A stretch of DNA of 16,691 bases from Acholeplasmatales bacterium (GTDB lineage: Bacteria; Bacillota_I; Bacilli_A; Acholeplasmatales; Anaeroplasmataceae): the NCBI GenBank assembly GCA_016288675.1, contig JAEELC010000107.1, positions 1 to 16,691 of the forward strand, read 5' to 3'. Below the pieces are notes generated by a model, which saw nothing but the letters and a program-made list of their open reading frames with translations, ran no database searches and was not told where the DNA came from. The number at the start of each line of letters is the position of its first letter. Positions within the stretch are counted from its first letter, which is position 1. The position numbers and the translations under genes were made by a program. Of this stretch, positions 6,852-12,650 are shown in pieces.

Positions 6852-6880
6852 ATCTTATGGTCTTTTATTGGAGGATTAAT

Positions 6881-7426
6881 ATGGAAAACAATTACAGCAA
6901 TAAATCTTTATTAGAAATTGCATATGGATTAACAAAAGAGAGCGTTGATGGTTATGCTATCGATGAACTTTTAGATAAAACAATCGAACTTAAGGGTTTA
7001 GATCCTAAAGATGTAGAAATTCGTTCTGCATTATATATTGATATCTGCTCAAGTTCTAAATTCGTTTACCTTGCTGATGGTAAGTGGGATTTAAAGACTC
7101 GTCATTCATTAGATGAATATGATAAGGATGGTTCTAAATTATATTCTGCTGAAGAGCTTGAAGATGAAGCTGAAGAAGTTTCAGGATATGAAGATGAAGA
7201 TGATGATGAAAACGACATCGATGACGATGACGATGATGATAACGATGATGATGAAGACGATGACGATGATGATAACGATGATGAATATTTAAATTCTGAA
7301 GATAGTTATTCTGATTCTTCTGAAGATGAAGATTACATCGACGATGAAGATAGCTTAGATGAAGACTTCGATGAACAAAAGTACAACGATACTATGGATG
7401 AGTACGAAGATAAGTACGATAGATAA
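6881..7426 (+). CDS. rpoE: RNA polymerase delta subunit
   Basis: The 181-residue protein has two parts characteristic of the Bacilli delta subunit. Residues 1-75 are the folded HARE-HTH-like domain (SLLEIAYGLTKE, then IRSALYIDICSSSKFVYLADGKWDLK). Residues 80-181 are an almost pure Asp/Glu tail that mimics nucleic acid and helps RNA polymerase release DNA and RNA. The ATG at 6881 is chosen because GGAGG (6870-6874) precedes it; an in-frame ATG at 6857 lies at the predicted transcription start. The acidic tail contains a 29-nt exact tandem duplication with a 33-nt period (7223-7251 and 7256-7284), which changes its length in whole codons. Own promoter and terminator flank it. Confidence 0.93.
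   Translation: MENNYSNKSLLEIAYGLTKESVDGYAIDELLDKTIELKGLDPKDVEIRSALYIDICSSSKFVYLADGKWDLKTRHSLDEYDKDGSKLYSAEELEDEAEEVSGYEDEDDDENDIDDDDDDDNDDDEDDDDDDNDDEYLNSEDSYSDSSEDEDYIDDEDSLDEDFDEQKYNDTMDEYEDKYDR
7223..7284 (+). repeat. 33-bp-period tandem duplication in the rpoE acidic tail
   Basis: Bases 7223-7251 and 7256-7284 are identical over 29 nt, offset by 33 nt (11 codons). They are built from GAT/GAC Asp codons with AAC/AAT-type Asn interruptions, encoding two similar blocks of Asp with one Asn. This is a product of repeat slippage that preserves the reading frame. Confidence 0.9.
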
Positions 7427-7573: not shown

Positions 7574-8785
7574 TTGTCTAATTATCTTGATGAGAAAAAA
7601 GGCTTTACACCTCGTGATGTCTTTGAAGAGGCTAGCAGATGTTTATTATGCCTTGATGCTCCTTGTTCACAAGGATGTCCAGCAGGAACAGATCCTGCTA
7701 AGTTTATTCGTTCTGTAAGATTCAAAAATATTGAAGGAGCAGCAAGTACAGTTAGAGAAAATAATATATTAGCTGGTATTTGTGCTCGTGTATGTCCTAC
7801 AGAAAAATATTGCGAGAAGGCTTGCTCTAGAAGCGGTATTGATAAGCCAATTCAAATCGCAGAAATTCAACGCTTTTTAACTGATTATGAAGAAACATGC
7901 AAAATGAAAATTCTTGAAAAGGAAAAGCCAAATGGTAAAAAGGTTGCAGTAATAGGTAGTGGTCCTGCAGGTTTAACTGCTGCAGGAAACCTAGCTTTAA
8001 AAGGATTTGATGTAACTGTATTTGAAAAATACTCTAAAGCTGGCGGTTATTTAACTTATGGTATTCCTGAATATCGTTTACCTAATGATGTAGTTAATAA
8101 CGAAATTAAAAAAATTGAGAATTTAGGAGTTAAATTTAAATTTAACACTAATGTTGGAAAAGATGTTTTACTTGAAAATTTAAAAAATGAATATGATGCA
8201 GTAATTATTGCGGTAGGTTTTGCAAAAGGTAAATTAATTGAAGATGCAAAGAATGCAGTATTAGCAGTAGATTTCTTACGTGATGTTAAAGAATCACGTG
8301 GCAATTACAAGGTTCCTTCTGACGCTGTAGTTATTGGTGGTGGAGATGTTGCAATGGATGTTTGCACAACATTAAAGCGCCTTGGTGTTAAGAATGTAAC
8401 AGACTGCATATATGAAGAATTCAGTGAATTTAGAGCTAGTCAAAAGGAACTTTCAGAAACACAAAAATGCGGTGTGACTATTATGGACGGTTATGTGCCT
8501 TCTAGCTTTAAAGACAATGGTGAAATTGTATTTAAGCATAGAGTTATTAATTCTGAAGTTGTTATTAAGCCTAGCTTAACTGTGCTTGCGATTGGTCAAA
8601 AGGCTGATTTTAGTGGTCTTAATATTACTGATAAGGATTTAACTAGTTCTACATATCAAATCAAGGGTACTAATGTATTCTATTGTGGTGATATTGCTCC
8701 AGGTGATAAGACTGTTGTTTATTCTGTTAAGACAGGTAAAGAATGCGCTCGTGCTATTATCGATTACGTAGGAGGTAATAAGTAA
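7574..8785 (+). CDS. preT: NAD(P)H-dependent dihydropyrimidine dehydrogenase, subunit PreT
   Basis: This 403-residue flavoprotein resembles the glutamate synthase small subunit. Cys23, 26, 31, 35 and Cys70, 74, 80, 84 ligate two N-terminal Fe-S clusters. [11 protein letters not shown] at 128-138 is the FAD Rossmann motif, [14 protein letters not shown] is a family signature, [12 protein letters not shown] near 253-264 is the NAD(P)H-binding motif, and [13 protein letters not shown] near the C-terminus is the second FAD motif. It passes electrons from NAD(P)H to PreA, which reduces uracil or thymine. The start is TTG at 7574: AGGAGG (7560-7565) lies eight bases upstream and no nearer ATG exists, so the rare start codon is well supported. 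Its stop overlaps the preA start (TAATG). Confidence 0.9.
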
Positions 8786-10053
8786 TGAAAAAAGATTTAT
8801 CTATTACTTTTATGGGAGTAAAGTTTCCTAATCCATTCTGCTTATCAAGCTCACCAGTAGGTAACTGCTATGAAATGTGTGCTAAAGCTTATGATTGTGG
8901 TTGGGGTGGTGTAGTATTTAAGACTATTGGCCCTAAGCATTATGTAATTGATGAGGTTTCTCCTCGTTTTGACGCTTTAACTAAGGAAGCTGAGCCTTTT
9001 GTTGGTTTTAAGAACATGGAACAAATAGCTGAGCACAGTCTTGAAGAAAATTTAGCGGATTTAAGAAGATTAAAAGAGAATTATCCTGATAAGGTGTTAA
9101 TTGCTTCTATCATGGGTAGCAATAAGCAAGATTGGATTGATCTTGCACGCTTAGTTACTGAAGCAGGTGCTGATATGATTGAACTTAACTTCTCATGTCC
9201 ACAAATGACTTCACATGCTATGGGTAGTGATGTAGGTAGTAATCCTGAATTATGTAAGGAATATTGCCAAGCAGTACGTTCTGCTACTAAATTACCATTT
9301 ATGGCTAAGATGACTCCAAATATCACTGATATGTGCATACCTGCTATTGCTTCTATGGAAGGTGGAGCTGATGGTATTGCAGCTATTAATACTATTAAAT
9401 CAATTACAAATATTGATCTAGATAAGAAGGTTGGTCTACCTATTATTGATGGTAAATCATCTATTTCTGGTTATTCAGGTAAGGCTGTAAAGCCAATTGC
9501 ATTAAGATTTATTGAACAAATGAAGACTAATCCAAAGCTTGCAAATGTAGAAATATCAGGTATTGGTGGTATTGAAACTTGGGAAGATGCTGCTGAATTT
9601 ATTTTACTTGGTTGTAAGACATTACAAGTAACTACTGCAATTATGCAATATGGTTATAGAATTGTTGAAGACTTATGTGATGGTCTTTCTCGTTATATGG
9701 AAAAGGAGCATGTTGATCATCTAGAAGATTTAGTAGGTCTTGCAATTAAGAATATTATTCCTGCAGAAAACCTAAATAGAGATTATAAGGTATATCCTGA
9801 AATTGATGCAGAAAAGTGTATCCATTGTGGTAGATGTGTAATTTCATGCTTTGACGGAGCTCATCAAGCTATGGAATGGGATAAGGCATCAAGAAGTGTT
9901 AGATGCAATACTGATAAGTGTGTAGGATGCTTCTTATGTGCTCTTGTATGTCCTGTTGGTGCTATTCACACTGGTAAGCGTGAATTAAAGAAGGGCAGAA
10001 AAGAAAGAAATCTAAATGATATTAAGTTACAAGATACATTCCAAAAATTGTAA
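8785..10053 (+). CDS. preA: NAD(P)H-dependent dihydropyrimidine dehydrogenase, catalytic subunit PreA
   Basis: The 422-residue protein joins a dihydroorotate-dehydrogenase-like FMN barrel (about 1-320) to a C-terminal ferredoxin domain. The active-site loop ELNFSCPQM carries candidate catalytic Cys138, equivalent to the cysteine in the SCPHGM loop of mammalian [22 protein letters not shown] and [15 protein letters not shown] are other barrel signatures. Two 4Fe-4S sites follow, C345-x2-C-x2-C-x3-C355 and C379-x2-C-x2-C-x3-C389. With PreT it forms the first step of reductive pyrimidine degradation. No dihydropyrimidinase or ureidopropionase gene is in the window, so the remainder of the pathway is not shown. 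Overlap with preT implies coupled, equimolar synthesis. No clear terminator follows before the inverted repeat at 10072-10127. Confidence 0.92.
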
Positions 10054-10071
10054 CTACTTTCACATGAATTT

Positions 10072-10127
10072 CACAGTAAAACTATAAAAAAAGTCAATTT
10101 TTCCGACACAAAAATAGCTTTACTGTG
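10072..10127. repeat. Long inverted repeat downstream of preA, upstream of sRNA start
   Basis: CACAGTAAAACTAT (10072-10085) and ATAGCTTTACTGTG (10114-10127) are inverted copies matching at 13 of 14 positions, with a 28-base AT-rich spacer. The right arm runs into the extended -10 of the promoter at 10126-10134. There is no T-tract directly after the right arm, so it is not a standard terminator for preTA. Possible roles are an operator for the small RNA promoter or a 3'-end structure of preTA mRNA. Confidence 0.6.
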
Positions 10128-10134
10128 TTATACT
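10126..10134 (+). promoter_or_regulatory. Extended -10 promoter for candidate small RNA
   Basis: TGTTATACT is TG-n followed by TATACT, a good extended -10 element. A -35 box is not clear: CCGACA (10103-10108) is the best candidate but gives a 20-bp spacer. The predicted start near 10141 coincides with the first base of a stable hairpin, which supports the call. Confidence 0.55.
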
Positions 10135-10140
10135 ATTAAT

Positions 10141-10256
10141 GCCTAGAGATAGGCAGTTGAAATATTTTCCAATTTTTAACTAAAGTATTTCATTCATATA
10201 ACAAACTAACTCTCCCAATTTAGTTTTCGAAGGCCATTTGGCCTTCTTTTTTTTTT
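10141..10256 (+). ncRNA. Candidate structured small RNA, about 115 nt
   Basis: I see no protein-coding content here but a regular set of hairpins. H1 is GCCTA-GAGA-TAGGC (10141-10154), with a GNRA loop. H2 pairs 10158-10168 with 10182-10192 (11 bp including one T-G wobble). H3 pairs AAACTAA (10203-10209) with TTAGTTT (10220-10226) and exposes the C-rich loop CTCTCCCAAT. H4 is the terminator GAAGGCC-ATTT-GGCCTTC (10229-10246) plus ten T residues. An extended -10 sits just upstream at the right distance. C-rich unpaired loops in Gram-positive sRNAs such as RsaE/RoxS and other staphylococcal Rsa RNAs pair with Shine-Dalgarno sequences, so a trans-acting regulator is plausible. It does not match tmRNA, SRP RNA or 6S RNA features that I know. 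Alternatively, it could be the 3' region of the preTA transcript. Confidence 0.6.
10229..10256 (+). terminator. Strong intrinsic terminator
   Basis: A 7-bp perfect GC-containing stem (GAAGGCC/GGCCTTC), a 4-base loop and ten consecutive T residues (10247-10256) make this one of the clearest terminators in the window. It ends the candidate small RNA and any preTA read-through. Confidence 0.93.
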
Positions 10257-10320
10257 ATAATATGAAATGATTATTAATTTATAAAAGTAATCTTTTATAT
10301 TTATCACATAATTTTCCCTT

Positions 10321-10356
10321 AATGTATTTGTAAAATAAAAATACATTGTATATAAT
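10321..10356 (+). promoter_or_regulatory. Promoter with overlapping operator-like palindrome for the two-component system
   Basis: TTGTAA (10328-10333), a 17-bp spacer and TATAAT (10351-10356) form the promoter. AATGTATTT (10321-10329) and AAATACATT (10339-10347) are perfect inverted copies 9 bp apart. They overlap the -35 box and spacer, so a dimeric regulator bound here should affect initiation. Autoregulation by the response regulator is possible but not shown. Confidence 0.65.
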
Positions 10357-10382
10357 TAAATTAAAGAAAAGGTAGTGGTTAT

Positions 10383-11045
10383 ATGATTAAAATTGGATAT
10401 GTAGAAGATAATATTGACTTTGCAAATCTAGTAAAAGATTATTTAGGACAAGAAGGATATGGTATTGAACATTTTGATACTGGTGAAAAGGCAATGCCAC
10501 ATGTTAATGATGATTATGCAATGTGGATATTAGATATCATGTTACCAGGAAATGTATCAGGATATGATTTAATTAAAAAGATTAGAGAAAATCATCCTAC
10601 AATGCCTGTGATTTTTGTATCAAATCGTGATGAGGATCTAGATAGAGTAATGGGTCTTGAACTTGGAAGCGATGATTATATTGGTAAATCTAGTATTCGT
10701 GAATTAGTATTACGAGTTAAGAAGCTATTATTACGTGCTTATCCTCAAGATAATTCTAATAATAACGCTATTGAATATAATGAATATACTATCGATTTAG
10801 ATAAGCGTATTGTTAAAGATGGTAATGAAGCTATTAACCTAACAGCTAAGGAATATGATTTATTAACATTCCTTCTTAAGAATAAGACACATGCTTTTTC
10901 ACGTGATCAAATTTTAAATGCTGTATGGGGTAGTGAATATTTTGGTAGTGACAGAGTAGTAGATGATTTAATGCGTAGATTACGTTCTAAAATGCCTAGA
11001 CTTAATGTAGAAACTATCTACGGATATGGATATAGATTATTATGA
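10383..11045 (+). CDS. OmpR/PhoB-family response regulator
   Basis: The 220-residue protein has a receiver domain (1-118) with acidic residues Glu8 and Asp9, phospho-acceptor Asp51 in LDIMLPG, Ser80 (VIFVSNR) and Lys102. The usual Lys-Pro after beta-5 is Lys-Ser here (DYIGKSS). Residues 128-220 are the winged-helix DNA-binding domain, with LTAKEYDLLTFLLKN and a C-terminal ETIYGYGYRLL typical of the family. It should be phosphorylated by the histidine kinase encoded next, whose start overlaps its stop by four bases (ATGA). The ribosome binding site is weak (AAAGGT). The stop codon is TGA, which shows that UGA is not read as Trp here. The stimulus and targets cannot be named from sequence. Confidence 0.92.
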   Translation: MIKIGYVEDNIDFANLVKDYLGQEGYGIEHFDTGEKAMPHVNDDYAMWILDIMLPGNVSGYDLIKKIRENHPTMPVIFVSNRDEDLDRVMGLELGSDDYIGKSSIRELVLRVKKLLLRAYPQDNSNNNAIEYNEYTIDLDKRIVKDGNEAINLTAKEYDLLTFLLKNKTHAFSRDQILNAVWGSEYFGSDRVVDDLMRRLRSKMPRLNVETIYGYGYRLL

Positions 11046-12391
11046 AGAAATTAAAGATTACTGGACAATTAGTTGTAGTATTCTCTATTATTGTAATTAG
11101 CTCTCTTTTAATATTTACATTACTTTCATTTAATCGTATTCAAGCTTCTAGTAAGAATTTAACTCAAAGTACACTTTATTCTTATGTTGAATTGACTGAA
11201 ATTGATTGGAAAAACGGTGATAAGATTAAGAATAACCTACCTAAGAGTACTGCATATATATCTGGCGAATTTAAAACTATATCAGAAGATGATGAAGAAC
11301 ATCCTGAAAAGCGTCGTTTAGAATTTATTAATTTAGATATATCTACAAATTTATATGATTTATTTGATGTAGAAGTTCCTTATGAAGCTATTTTAAGAGA
11401 AGTTAGATTCACACCAGGTATTCAAGGTACAACTGAAAAAAAGGTTGATAATAAAGAATATTATATGTCTTATGGTGTATCTGAAGAAATAGATGGTATA
11501 TGCTACTTTGTTGTGTTTATAACAGATCAAGCAACATCATATTCAAAAGCGACAAATTTATCTCTTCAAATTATTTTAGTATTCGCTATTACTATGGGAT
11601 TAGCTATAGTTGTACTAATTACATGGAGCCATTATTTAGTTAATAGAATCAAAAGATTACAACGTCATATTTCTTCATTAAAAGATACTAATTATGAAGA
11701 AGCTTATGTAGATAAGGGTGCTGATGAGGTTACAGAACTTGCTAATTCTATAGAAACAATGCGTCTTGAAATTTTACAAAATGATAAGACTAAGCAAGAA
11801 ATGTTACAAAATATAAGCCATGACTTTAAAACTCCTATCGGTGTAATTAAAAGCTATGCTGAAGCTATGCAGGATGGTCATATGCTTGATAAAGGACCTG
11901 ATGTCATTATTAAGCAATCAGAGATTTTATATAATAAGACTCAACAATTAATTATTTATAATAAACTTGAATATTTAACACATGATAAAGAATTTGAAAG
12001 TGTTAATATGCGTAGACTTATTGAATCAGTAGAAAATAATTTTAAAGCTATAAATCCTACTATTAAATGGGAAAATTCTTTAGAAGATATATATTTCCAA
12101 GGCTATGCTGATAATTATAGAATTGTAATTGAAAATATATTAGAAAATTCATTACGCTACGCTAAATCTCTTATTAGGATTACATTAAGAGAAGATAAAA
12201 TCGAAATATATAATGAGGGTGAAGCTCTTGATGAGAAATTTATCAAAGATGGATTTAAAGCGTATGAAAAAGGTTCTAAAGGTAAATTTGGACTTGGTAT
12301 GTCAATTGTTGTAAAGACACTTTCCTTCTTTGGATATAAGCTAAATGCTAGAAATGAAGATGTTGGTGTTACATTTACTATTAGTAAATAG
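11042..12391 (+). CDS. Sensor histidine kinase
   Basis: The 449-residue protein has a first membrane helix at about 10-29, an extracytoplasmic sensor region at 31-170, and a second helix near 174-196. The HAMP linker follows (about 197-248). The H-box NISHDFKTPIGVIKSYAEAM places phospho-acceptor His260. The ATPase domain shows the N-box (IVIENILENSLRYA, 361-374), NEGE in place of the usual DxGxG, and the G2 box GKFGLGMSIV (414-422). It phosphorylates the regulator encoded just upstream. The sensor region is acidic and lysine-rich around 80-92 (SEDDEEHPEKRR) and has no domain I recognise. The operon ends here; the asnS leader promoter begins seven bases after the TAG stop, and no separate terminator is seen. 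Confidence 0.92.
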   Translation: MKKLKITGQLVVVFSIIVISSLLIFTLLSFNRIQASSKNLTQSTLYSYVELTEIDWKNGDKIKNNLPKSTAYISGEFKTISEDDEEHPEKRRLEFINLDISTNLYDLFDVEVPYEAILREVRFTPGIQGTTEKKVDNKEYYMSYGVSEEIDGICYFVVFITDQATSYSKATNLSLQIILVFAITMGLAIVVLITWSHYLVNRIKRLQRHISSLKDTNYEEAYVDKGADEVTELANSIETMRLEILQNDKTKQEMLQNISHDFKTPIGVIKSYAEAMQDGHMLDKGPDVIIKQSEILYNKTQQLIIYNKLEYLTHDKEFESVNMRRLIESVENNFKAINPTIKWENSLEDIYFQGYADNYRIVIENILENSLRYAKSLIRITLREDKIEIYNEGEALDEKFIKDGFKAYEKGSKGKFGLGMSIVVKTLSFFGYKLNARNEDVGVTFTISK

Positions 12392-12426: not shown

Positions 12427-12432
12427 ATATAC

Positions 12433-12650
12433 AAATCGATGATAAGACCGAATTAATAAAGTATCTTTTAGAGAGTCTGTGGATGGTGTAAACAGATAGA
12501 GCTTATTAAGGAGAACAGCTTTGAGGAGATGGAAGAAATTAGTAGAACCATCCGTATGCCTGCGTTAAAGGTTTGAGTGCTAGATTTATATCTAGAACTA
12601 AGGTGGTACCGCGTATTATAGACGCCCTTAGATGAGGGGCGTCTTTTTTT
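12433..12650 (+). promoter_or_regulatory. T-box riboswitch, Asn specifier, controlling asnS
   Basis: The leader has the canonical order of a T-box. Stem I contains the AGAGAG motif (about 12471-12476) and the distal-loop GGATGGTG (12481-12488). On its 3' side, GGAGAACA includes the candidate specifier AAC (12514-12516), an Asn codon. A Stem III-like hairpin pairs CTAGAT with ATCTAG (12580-12595). The T-box sequence AAGGTGGTACCGCG (12600-12613) follows, in which CTAAGG can pair with the CCTTAG at 12626-12631 as antiterminator. The competing terminator is GACGCCCTT/AGGGGCGTC (12621-12643) plus T7. Uncharged tRNA-Asn should stabilise the antiterminator and allow asnS transcription. Exact stem boundaries are hand-drawn. 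Confidence 0.95.
12621..12650 (+). terminator. T-box regulated terminator
   Basis: A 9-bp GC-rich stem (GACGCCCTT with AGGGGCGTC, one T-G wobble) around an AGATG loop is followed by seven T residues. It shares the CCTTAG segment with the antiterminator helix, the usual switch of a T-box leader. Confidence 0.93.

Follow-up and report, generated by a model that had tools for sequence, protein, structure and literature searches.

A multi-copy small RNA family with C-rich motifs in the Anaeroplasmataceae, linked to a neighbouring two-component system

The window analysed here, a stretch of 16,691 nucleotides from an Acholeplasmatales bacterium, carries a predicted small RNA gene just upstream of the genes for an OmpR/PhoB-type response regulator and a sensor histidine kinase (Table 1). 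The RNA had been described in an earlier sequence-only reading of the window, and both the element and its coordinates agree with the sequence and the predicted fold. On its other side, at 6857-7426 and 7574-10053, stand the RNA polymerase delta gene and then preT and preA, which separate it from the sRNA. In relatives the delta gene often directly precedes the sRNA (cluster 1, 20 members, by eye), and the intervening preT and preA of the window suggest that preTA may have been inserted into an older gene order. An ordinary T-box leader (RF00230, 116.4 bits) is found at 12430-12632, before a gene that by eye is asparaginyl-tRNA synthetase-like.

Table 1. Features of the small RNA locus and the adjacent two-component genes (window positions)
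Feature	Positions	Strand	Basis
Direct repeat TTTCACA-N4-TTTCACA, TTTCACATGAATTTCACA, putative response-regulator site	10058..10075	+	Sequence
Extended -10, TG-T-TATACT	10126..10134	+	Sequence; TATACT-/TATAAT-like box here in most relatives
Small RNA gene, ~115 nt	10139..10256	+	Fold; R2 match at 10139-10251, 44.2 bits, E 4.5e-6
Hairpin 1, GCCTA-GAGA-TAGGC, GNRA loop	10141..10154	+	Fold; helix 2: 4/4 pairs change on both sides
Hairpin 2	10158..10192	+	Fold; helix 4: 6/7 pairs change on both sides
Hairpin 3, C-rich motif in loop	10203..10226	+	Fold; predicted also in L003, L004, L005
CTCTCCC, proposed seed against ribosome binding sites	10210..10216	+	Linker motif of strong copies
Intrinsic terminator: stem 10229-10246, exactly ten T 10247-10256	10229..10256	+	Fold; 12/12 pairs change on both sides
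Second box copy, regulator's own promoter	10303..10326	+	Best window match of the relatives' sRNA-promoter matrix
Promoter-like TTGTAA-N17-TATAAT before two-component genes	10328..10356	+	Promoter prediction, sequence
OmpR/PhoB-type response regulator	10383..11045	+	Response_reg, Trans_reg_C
Sensor histidine kinase	11042..12391	+	HAMP, HisKA, HATPase_c

The predicted fold of positions 10141-10256 has a minimum free energy of -28.2 kcal/mol against -13.9 +/- 3.0 kcal/mol for shuffled sequences (z = -4.85), and none of 200 shuffles was as good, which bears out the four-hairpin structure that had been claimed. The extended -10 and the terminator with ten T residues were likewise found where the sequence-only reading had put them. 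The terminator is the sole one in 9900-10450, where 0.1 is expected. The same reading had placed the start exactly on the GNRA-capped hairpin; position 10141 is within the fit, and the relatives' GTGTCTTA, aligned to 10139, refines the first base to 10139-10141. No -35 box was seen at the usual distance from the -10, either in the sequence or among predicted promoters. The possibility of a small protein was rejected: the window has an ORF of 14 codons from 10139, and in relatives ORF length and position scatter (0-28 codons) with no common reading frame, the longest ORF being of two codons or fewer in 23 of 81 copies and of up to 28 codons in others.

Relatives of the RNA were found by several routes. 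In a nucleotide search of 100 related genomes, the top matches apart from the window itself covered the stretch around CTCTCCC (query 94-126) and came from genomes of the same family. Named genomes were also scanned with a pattern, which returned 28 stretches; 22 were judged relatives by promoter and structure and six unrelated. The 22 are labelled Anaeroplasma, Anaeroplasmataceae or Acholeplasmatales, and also include MAGs labelled Erysipelotrichaceae, Bacillales and Clostridium. Two copies are present in Anaeroplasma bactoclasticum ATCC 27112 (Mollicutes, Anaeroplasmataceae), a named strain in which expression is therefore directly testable. The covariance model R2 was built from 19 relatives (19 of the 27 rows of alignment A1, which omits L029, whose start was misplaced); L003, of the same genus as the window, was included and the window itself excluded, so that the score of the window copy in Table 1 comes from a model trained without it.

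With R2, 87 matches at E <= 0.01 were obtained in 48 of the 55 genomes of the family, and in 28 of the 31 good genomes. The 105 genomes from elsewhere in the order yielded no match, and among 395 sampled genomes of the class, at E <= 0.001, all 19 genomes matched belong to the family. A broader model, R3, reached 50 of the 55 family genomes, with two others borderline (E 0.036 and 0.042). On these searches the RNA looks like a multi-copy family confined to one bacterial family, the Anaeroplasmataceae. The 81 fetched R2 matches at E <= 1e-5 are referred to below as strong copies; four duplicate places were dropped from 90 matches with E < 0.001, and the five weak matches L137-L141 and the 87th match (G034:C154) stand outside the count of 81. 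One genome, G021 (L133, G021:C6:1-11122, and L138, G021:C2), has seven R2 matches, four of them within 11 kb; the copies are short, and their small loop holds CCCCC or CCC.

The stems are kept by covariation. Over the 81 matches (80 distinct rows), 91.1% of the cells at paired positions can pair, compared with 70.5% after shuffling of partners and 40-53% after sliding, and changes on both sides were seen in 25 of 26 pairs, in an alignment that was fitted to the model and so leans towards it. When 19 close relatives were aligned without such fitting, the values were 81.7% against 73.0%, with 10 of the 13 pairs that change on both sides lying in the terminator. For the mixed alignment of 27 rows, automatic consensus folding recovered the terminator alone. 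For hairpin 2 the evidence comes from divergent members (the second copy of L075, L006, L035 and the window), in which the stem is kept and the letters differ.

The other conserved trait of the family is its C-rich motifs. CTCTCC or CTCCC is kept in the linker of 78 of the 81 strong copies, and a second motif, TCCC or CCCC, occurs at RNA positions 13-44 (the hairpin-2 region) in 70; both are present in 67. The predicted median unpaired probability, where the motifs are present, is 0.99 for the linker motif and 1.00 for the second, the mean over all positions being 0.45. Some relatives have a third C-rich site in the terminator loop. The window copy has the linker motif only, its second motif being reduced to TTTTCC. 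The exposed CTCTCCC loop of the sequence-only reading holds for hairpin 3 of the window; across the strong copies the motif is mostly predicted to be open without hairpin 3. The linker sequence of many relatives is TTTTTCATAAGCAAACTATAACTCTCCCAATT; it is complementary to GGGAGAG with ATGAAAAA further downstream, a Shine-Dalgarno site plus start codon.

The motif suggests that CUCUCCC may pair with Shine-Dalgarno sites. AGGAGG-type sites had been put forward as suitable partners, a point to be corrected, since CTCTCCC is exactly complementary to GGGAGAG and not to AGGAGG. Among 243 ribosome binding sites of the loci examined, which were chosen by similarity to AGGAGGT and thus bias the comparison, AGGAGG was found in 20, GGGAG in seven and GGAGAG in two. 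Given this scarcity of GGGAG and GGAGAG, full-length pairing would select a minority of genes. General anti-Shine-Dalgarno pairing in the window was tried by computing duplex energies against 16 genes and was set aside, as nothing decisive emerged; z was lowest at the regulator (-2.7) and highest at asnS (+1.2), and ybaB was best with the linker (-14.2 kcal/mol), with starts assigned by hand and that of the papain-like gene off a start codon.

Targets were also sought across the family. Among 30 examined loci with the complement of the motif, TTGGGAGAG, sorted by eye, eight are tRNA-Val genes, six are the antisense strand of sRNAs, eight belong to a second sRNA family, seven are other and one is blank. 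GGGAGAGAGTTATG, a candidate shared target in the genera g1 and g3, was discarded, as it is the antisense of a longer sRNA-like gene described below. The pattern GGGAGAG-N3-9-ATG was followed by an ORF scored as lipoprotein in 12 of 84 distinct ORFs, compared with 24 of 453 in the background (Fisher p 0.007, among the matches listed). These comprise 107 of the 108 matches for g5 plus some of g1, g3 and g4, leaving out L210 (G052, a lipoprotein gene by eye), g6 and other genera. The enrichment was noticed before it was tested and is post hoc, and the lipobox rule miscalls on both sides (e.g., L301 and L302). The lipoprotein share is alike in genomes without an R2 match (3/22; G022, G040, G052) and in the rest (9/62, hand count), so the lipoprotein signal does not point to the sRNA. 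Lipoprotein mRNAs as targets of the sRNA are thus a weak, post hoc lead.

It is also conceivable, and in our judgement unlikely, that the RNA binds a protein or another RNA, as a sponge or as a protector of tRNA or mRNA, and not ribosome binding sites. The linker TTTTTCATAAGCAAACTATAACTCTCCC is conserved over a length well beyond the needs of a short seed, and eight of the 30 loci with TTGGGAGAG are tRNA-Val(TAC) genes. However, the tRNA match falls in the D-arm and may follow from common D-arm sequence. Moreover, the C-rich motifs of sRNAs from low-GC Gram-positive bacteria pair with Shine-Dalgarno regions (PMC4132741).

The two-component system next to the RNA is itself widespread in the family. 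The response regulator has one match each in 51 of the 55 genomes at E <= 1e-40, and in 38 of these 51 a copy of the RNA lies upstream of the regulator gene on the same strand, at 34-132 bp in 36 of them. The two larger gaps are 1742 bp in G010 (L005, G010:C20) and 529 bp in G018 (L124, G018:C44); in both L005 and L124 the sRNA and the regulator are separated by transposase-like ORFs that by eye are IS110-like. Among the 13 regulator-bearing genomes without an adjacent R2 match, 11 loci could be read (G024 is cut by a contig end and G041 was left out), and several of them keep, by eye, a short unit of box, promoter and terminator. G008 has a C-rich version there that is possibly diverged (R3 21.1 bits, E 0.043).

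This arrangement could mean that the element is mainly a cis-acting leader, in which a regulated promoter and a terminator attenuate transcription into the two-component genes, and the frequent same-strand position before the regulator, together with the short promoter-terminator units just mentioned, speaks for this reading. It is nevertheless improbable. Copies away from the regulator make up 49 of the 87 matches and 43 of the 81 strong copies, the other 38 strong copies being upstream of the regulator. Forty-five strong copies have another ORF as nearest downstream neighbour (at least 50 codons, found with a simple script), and 29 of these ORFs are co-directional and 14 convergent, with the remaining two out of reach. 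In addition, a separate box and promoter-like site for the regulator follow the terminator in the window, and the conserved C-rich motifs are unneeded by a leader. The distribution of the copies agrees instead with the proposal of the sequence-only reading that this is a free-standing gene.

The direct repeat upstream of the -10, which that reading had overlooked, is the sole TTTCACA-N3/4-TTTCACA of the window and was found in none of 200 shuffles. TCACATAATTTCACATAATT-like repeats stand upstream of many of the relatives' copies. The distance from box to RNA could be taken for 59 of the 85 non-window matches and is 38 bp in 35, 39-40 bp in eight, 48 bp in seven, 58-59 bp in four and of other values in five, although some of these distances may reflect another register of the repeat; the remaining 26 matches have no usable box match, either with too little upstream sequence or with none found. 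All seven exact occurrences of TCACATAATTTCACATAATT in the 55 genomes are just upstream of R2 matches. With up to two mismatches there are 46 matches, many of which carry two mismatches and are near background, against 11 for the reversed pattern, and 19 of the 46 are upstream of R2 matches (16 at 39-40 bp, two at 59 bp and one at 25 bp). Of the nine copies that follow an acetate-kinase-like gene, eight (L110, L113-L117, L121 and L126) show no box by eye. The repeat of the window, like those of L034 and L042, lies some 20 bp more distant from the -10 than is usual among relatives, and steps of about 20 bp would keep the box on the same helix face.

The window sRNA box has a period of 11 bp, compared with 10 in the relatives' consensus, and scores at most 2.6 bits on the relatives' matrix. 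When the whole window was scanned with this sRNA-promoter matrix, made without the window, the first match was the copy before the regulator gene, with 11.7 bits, the next scoring 4.9. With the repeat at the sRNA and the top match at the regulator promoter, a common box seems to precede both the sRNA and the regulator gene. Such a common, putative site fits autoregulation of the regulator plus control of the sRNA, and linkage together with the common box suggests that the regulator probably controls the sRNA.

The TTTCACA-type box resembles PHO boxes. A Pho regulon was considered and rejected, as 17 loci with a box match had, by eye, no pst or pho gene and instead carried membrane-protein, ABC-transporter, lipoprotein and other genes. 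In five g6 genomes a TCACATAATATCACATAACT box lies about 90 bp from a divergent gene for a protein with multiple membrane spans, Bax inhibitor-like by eye (L165-L169, around 1500), and this gene is a possible further member of the regulon.

The sequence-only reading had suggested an undescribed RNA, and comparison with Rfam is in line with this. At the gathering level there was no match at the window locus, the sole match in the window being the T-box, and none at 20 relatives' loci. At E values up to 10 nothing on the window RNA exceeded 20.1 bits; rli31, with 15.8 bits, is the one weak match along the sRNA on its strand. The models of two better-known families were looked at in particular. 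On L039 the LhrC model (RF00616) gave 18.1 bits against a gathering score of 110, and the csRNA model (RF02379) 15.9 bits against 57, where other chance-level matches of the same locus reach 24.8 bits, all far under their cut-offs. Neither model appears among the E <= 10 matches of the window or among the matches of L072.

The LhrC1-5 RNAs of Listeria monocytogenes are about 110 nt long, multi-copy and dependent on a two-component system, with a LisR-responsive promoter element upstream of -53. They have three UCCC sites, in two loops and a single-stranded stretch, and bind a GGGAG site upstream of the start codon, which impedes translation without a need for Hfq (PMC4132741). The present family is like LhrC in size and multiple copies, and probably in the link to a two-component system, here by linkage and a common box. 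As for UCCC-type sites, there are two in 67 of the 81 strong copies and one in the window. It differs from LhrC in its extra 5' hairpin, its regulator-linked copy and a different, sequence-conserved linker.

A second parallel is offered by the streptococcal csRNAs of the CiaRH regulon, for which PMC3091779 gives a set of copies controlled by a single response regulator, a direct repeat with a period of 11 bp, and an unpaired region complementary to Shine-Dalgarno and AUG, with such pairing proposed. The linker of most relatives, TTTTTCAT...CTCTCCC, fits GGGAGAG plus ATGAAAAA in the same manner. In contrast, the CiaR box TTTAAG-N5-TTTAAG is absent from the window promoter, which has TTTCACA-N4-TTTCACA, and the family has more hairpins. 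RsaE and other UCCC sRNAs of Bacilli also have an exposed C-rich motif that pairs with Shine-Dalgarno sites (as cited in PMC4132741). The C-rich motif of the present RNA is alike, and the RsaE/RoxS model was unmatched at the window and at 20 relatives' loci at the gathering level. RoxS/RsaE is controlled by ResD, SrrA or Rex. In the titles and abstract openings of the open-licence literature, no two-component-controlled sRNA was found described in Mycoplasmatota, and nothing relevant on sRNA in Anaeroplasma or Mollicutes. We regard this as a new sRNA family that would resemble LhrC and the csRNAs in action and is set apart from them by Rfam score.

Two other sRNA-like families were seen along the way. 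A longer gene of about 170-190 nt, with a small 5' hairpin and ACATAACTCTCTCCC, occurs in the window's genome, in its genus and in genus g3 (L262, in G000:C146 at about 8.75-9.0 kb, and L263-L266). In L262 and L265-L266 the ACATAACTCTCTCCC motif lies within a large predicted hairpin, with TTTCAC-like sequence upstream, and R3 gave 27 bits on L263 and L264. A sister family with AATAACTTTTCAAAATAATCTCTCCCAAA was found at L137, L141, L204, L209 and L216 (around 1480-1560). Its promoter, TTGACAAGCGCTTTCAT, overlaps a site that is cre-like (CcpA) by the cre consensus, and this overlap suggests control of the sister family by carbon source. L208, L224 and L225 have the AATAACTTTTCAAAATAATCTCTCCCAAA-family RNA motif without the TTGACAAGCGCTTTCAT promoter arrangement.

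Taken together, the sequence comparisons support the conservation of the RNA gene and of its structure, the C-rich motifs, the number of copies, the linkage to the regulator and a common box. The frequent folding of AT-rich intergenic DNA might speak for a chance fold or terminator debris without RNA function, which a fold z of -4.85 makes scarcely credible and which homologues in 48 genomes and covariation contradict. No Hfq was detected in any of the 55 family genomes, by a search that was positive in 5 of 14 control genomes. We consider it likely that the locus is a free-standing gene, one of a multi-copy, lineage-specific family whose sRNAs act in trans, are activated by the regulator and repress through CUCUCCC without Hfq. 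The lack of a gathering-level Rfam match and the strong covariation of the stems likewise support the interpretation offered by the sequence-only reading.

By this mechanism, the neighbouring response regulator, once phosphorylated, would bind the TTTCACA direct repeat and activate the promoter that has no -35 box. The RNA would end at its own terminator, and its exposed CUCUCCC, in most relatives along with the second C-rich motif, would pair with G-rich ribosome binding sites on selected mRNAs, blocking their translation without Hfq. Binding of the regulator to the box, repression and targets are the steps that we infer, and envelope stress as the inducing signal would be a guess by analogy with LhrC, whose expression depends on LisRK when the cell envelope is stressed. 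A broader reading makes the family an independently evolved Mollicute counterpart of LhrC and the csRNAs, in which one two-component system acts largely via paralogous, Hfq-free C-loop sRNAs pairing with Shine-Dalgarno site and AUGAAA start alike on surface lipoprotein mRNAs, beside a sister family under a cre-like (CcpA-type) promoter; this we hold to be possible and speculative, with the odds against it.

On the preferred reading of a regulator-activated, trans-acting sRNA, the finding would add to Mycoplasmatota a broadly conserved sRNA family, tied to one regulator in genomes without detectable Hfq, and its paralogues would provide a natural test of how a set of C-rich sRNAs diversifies.
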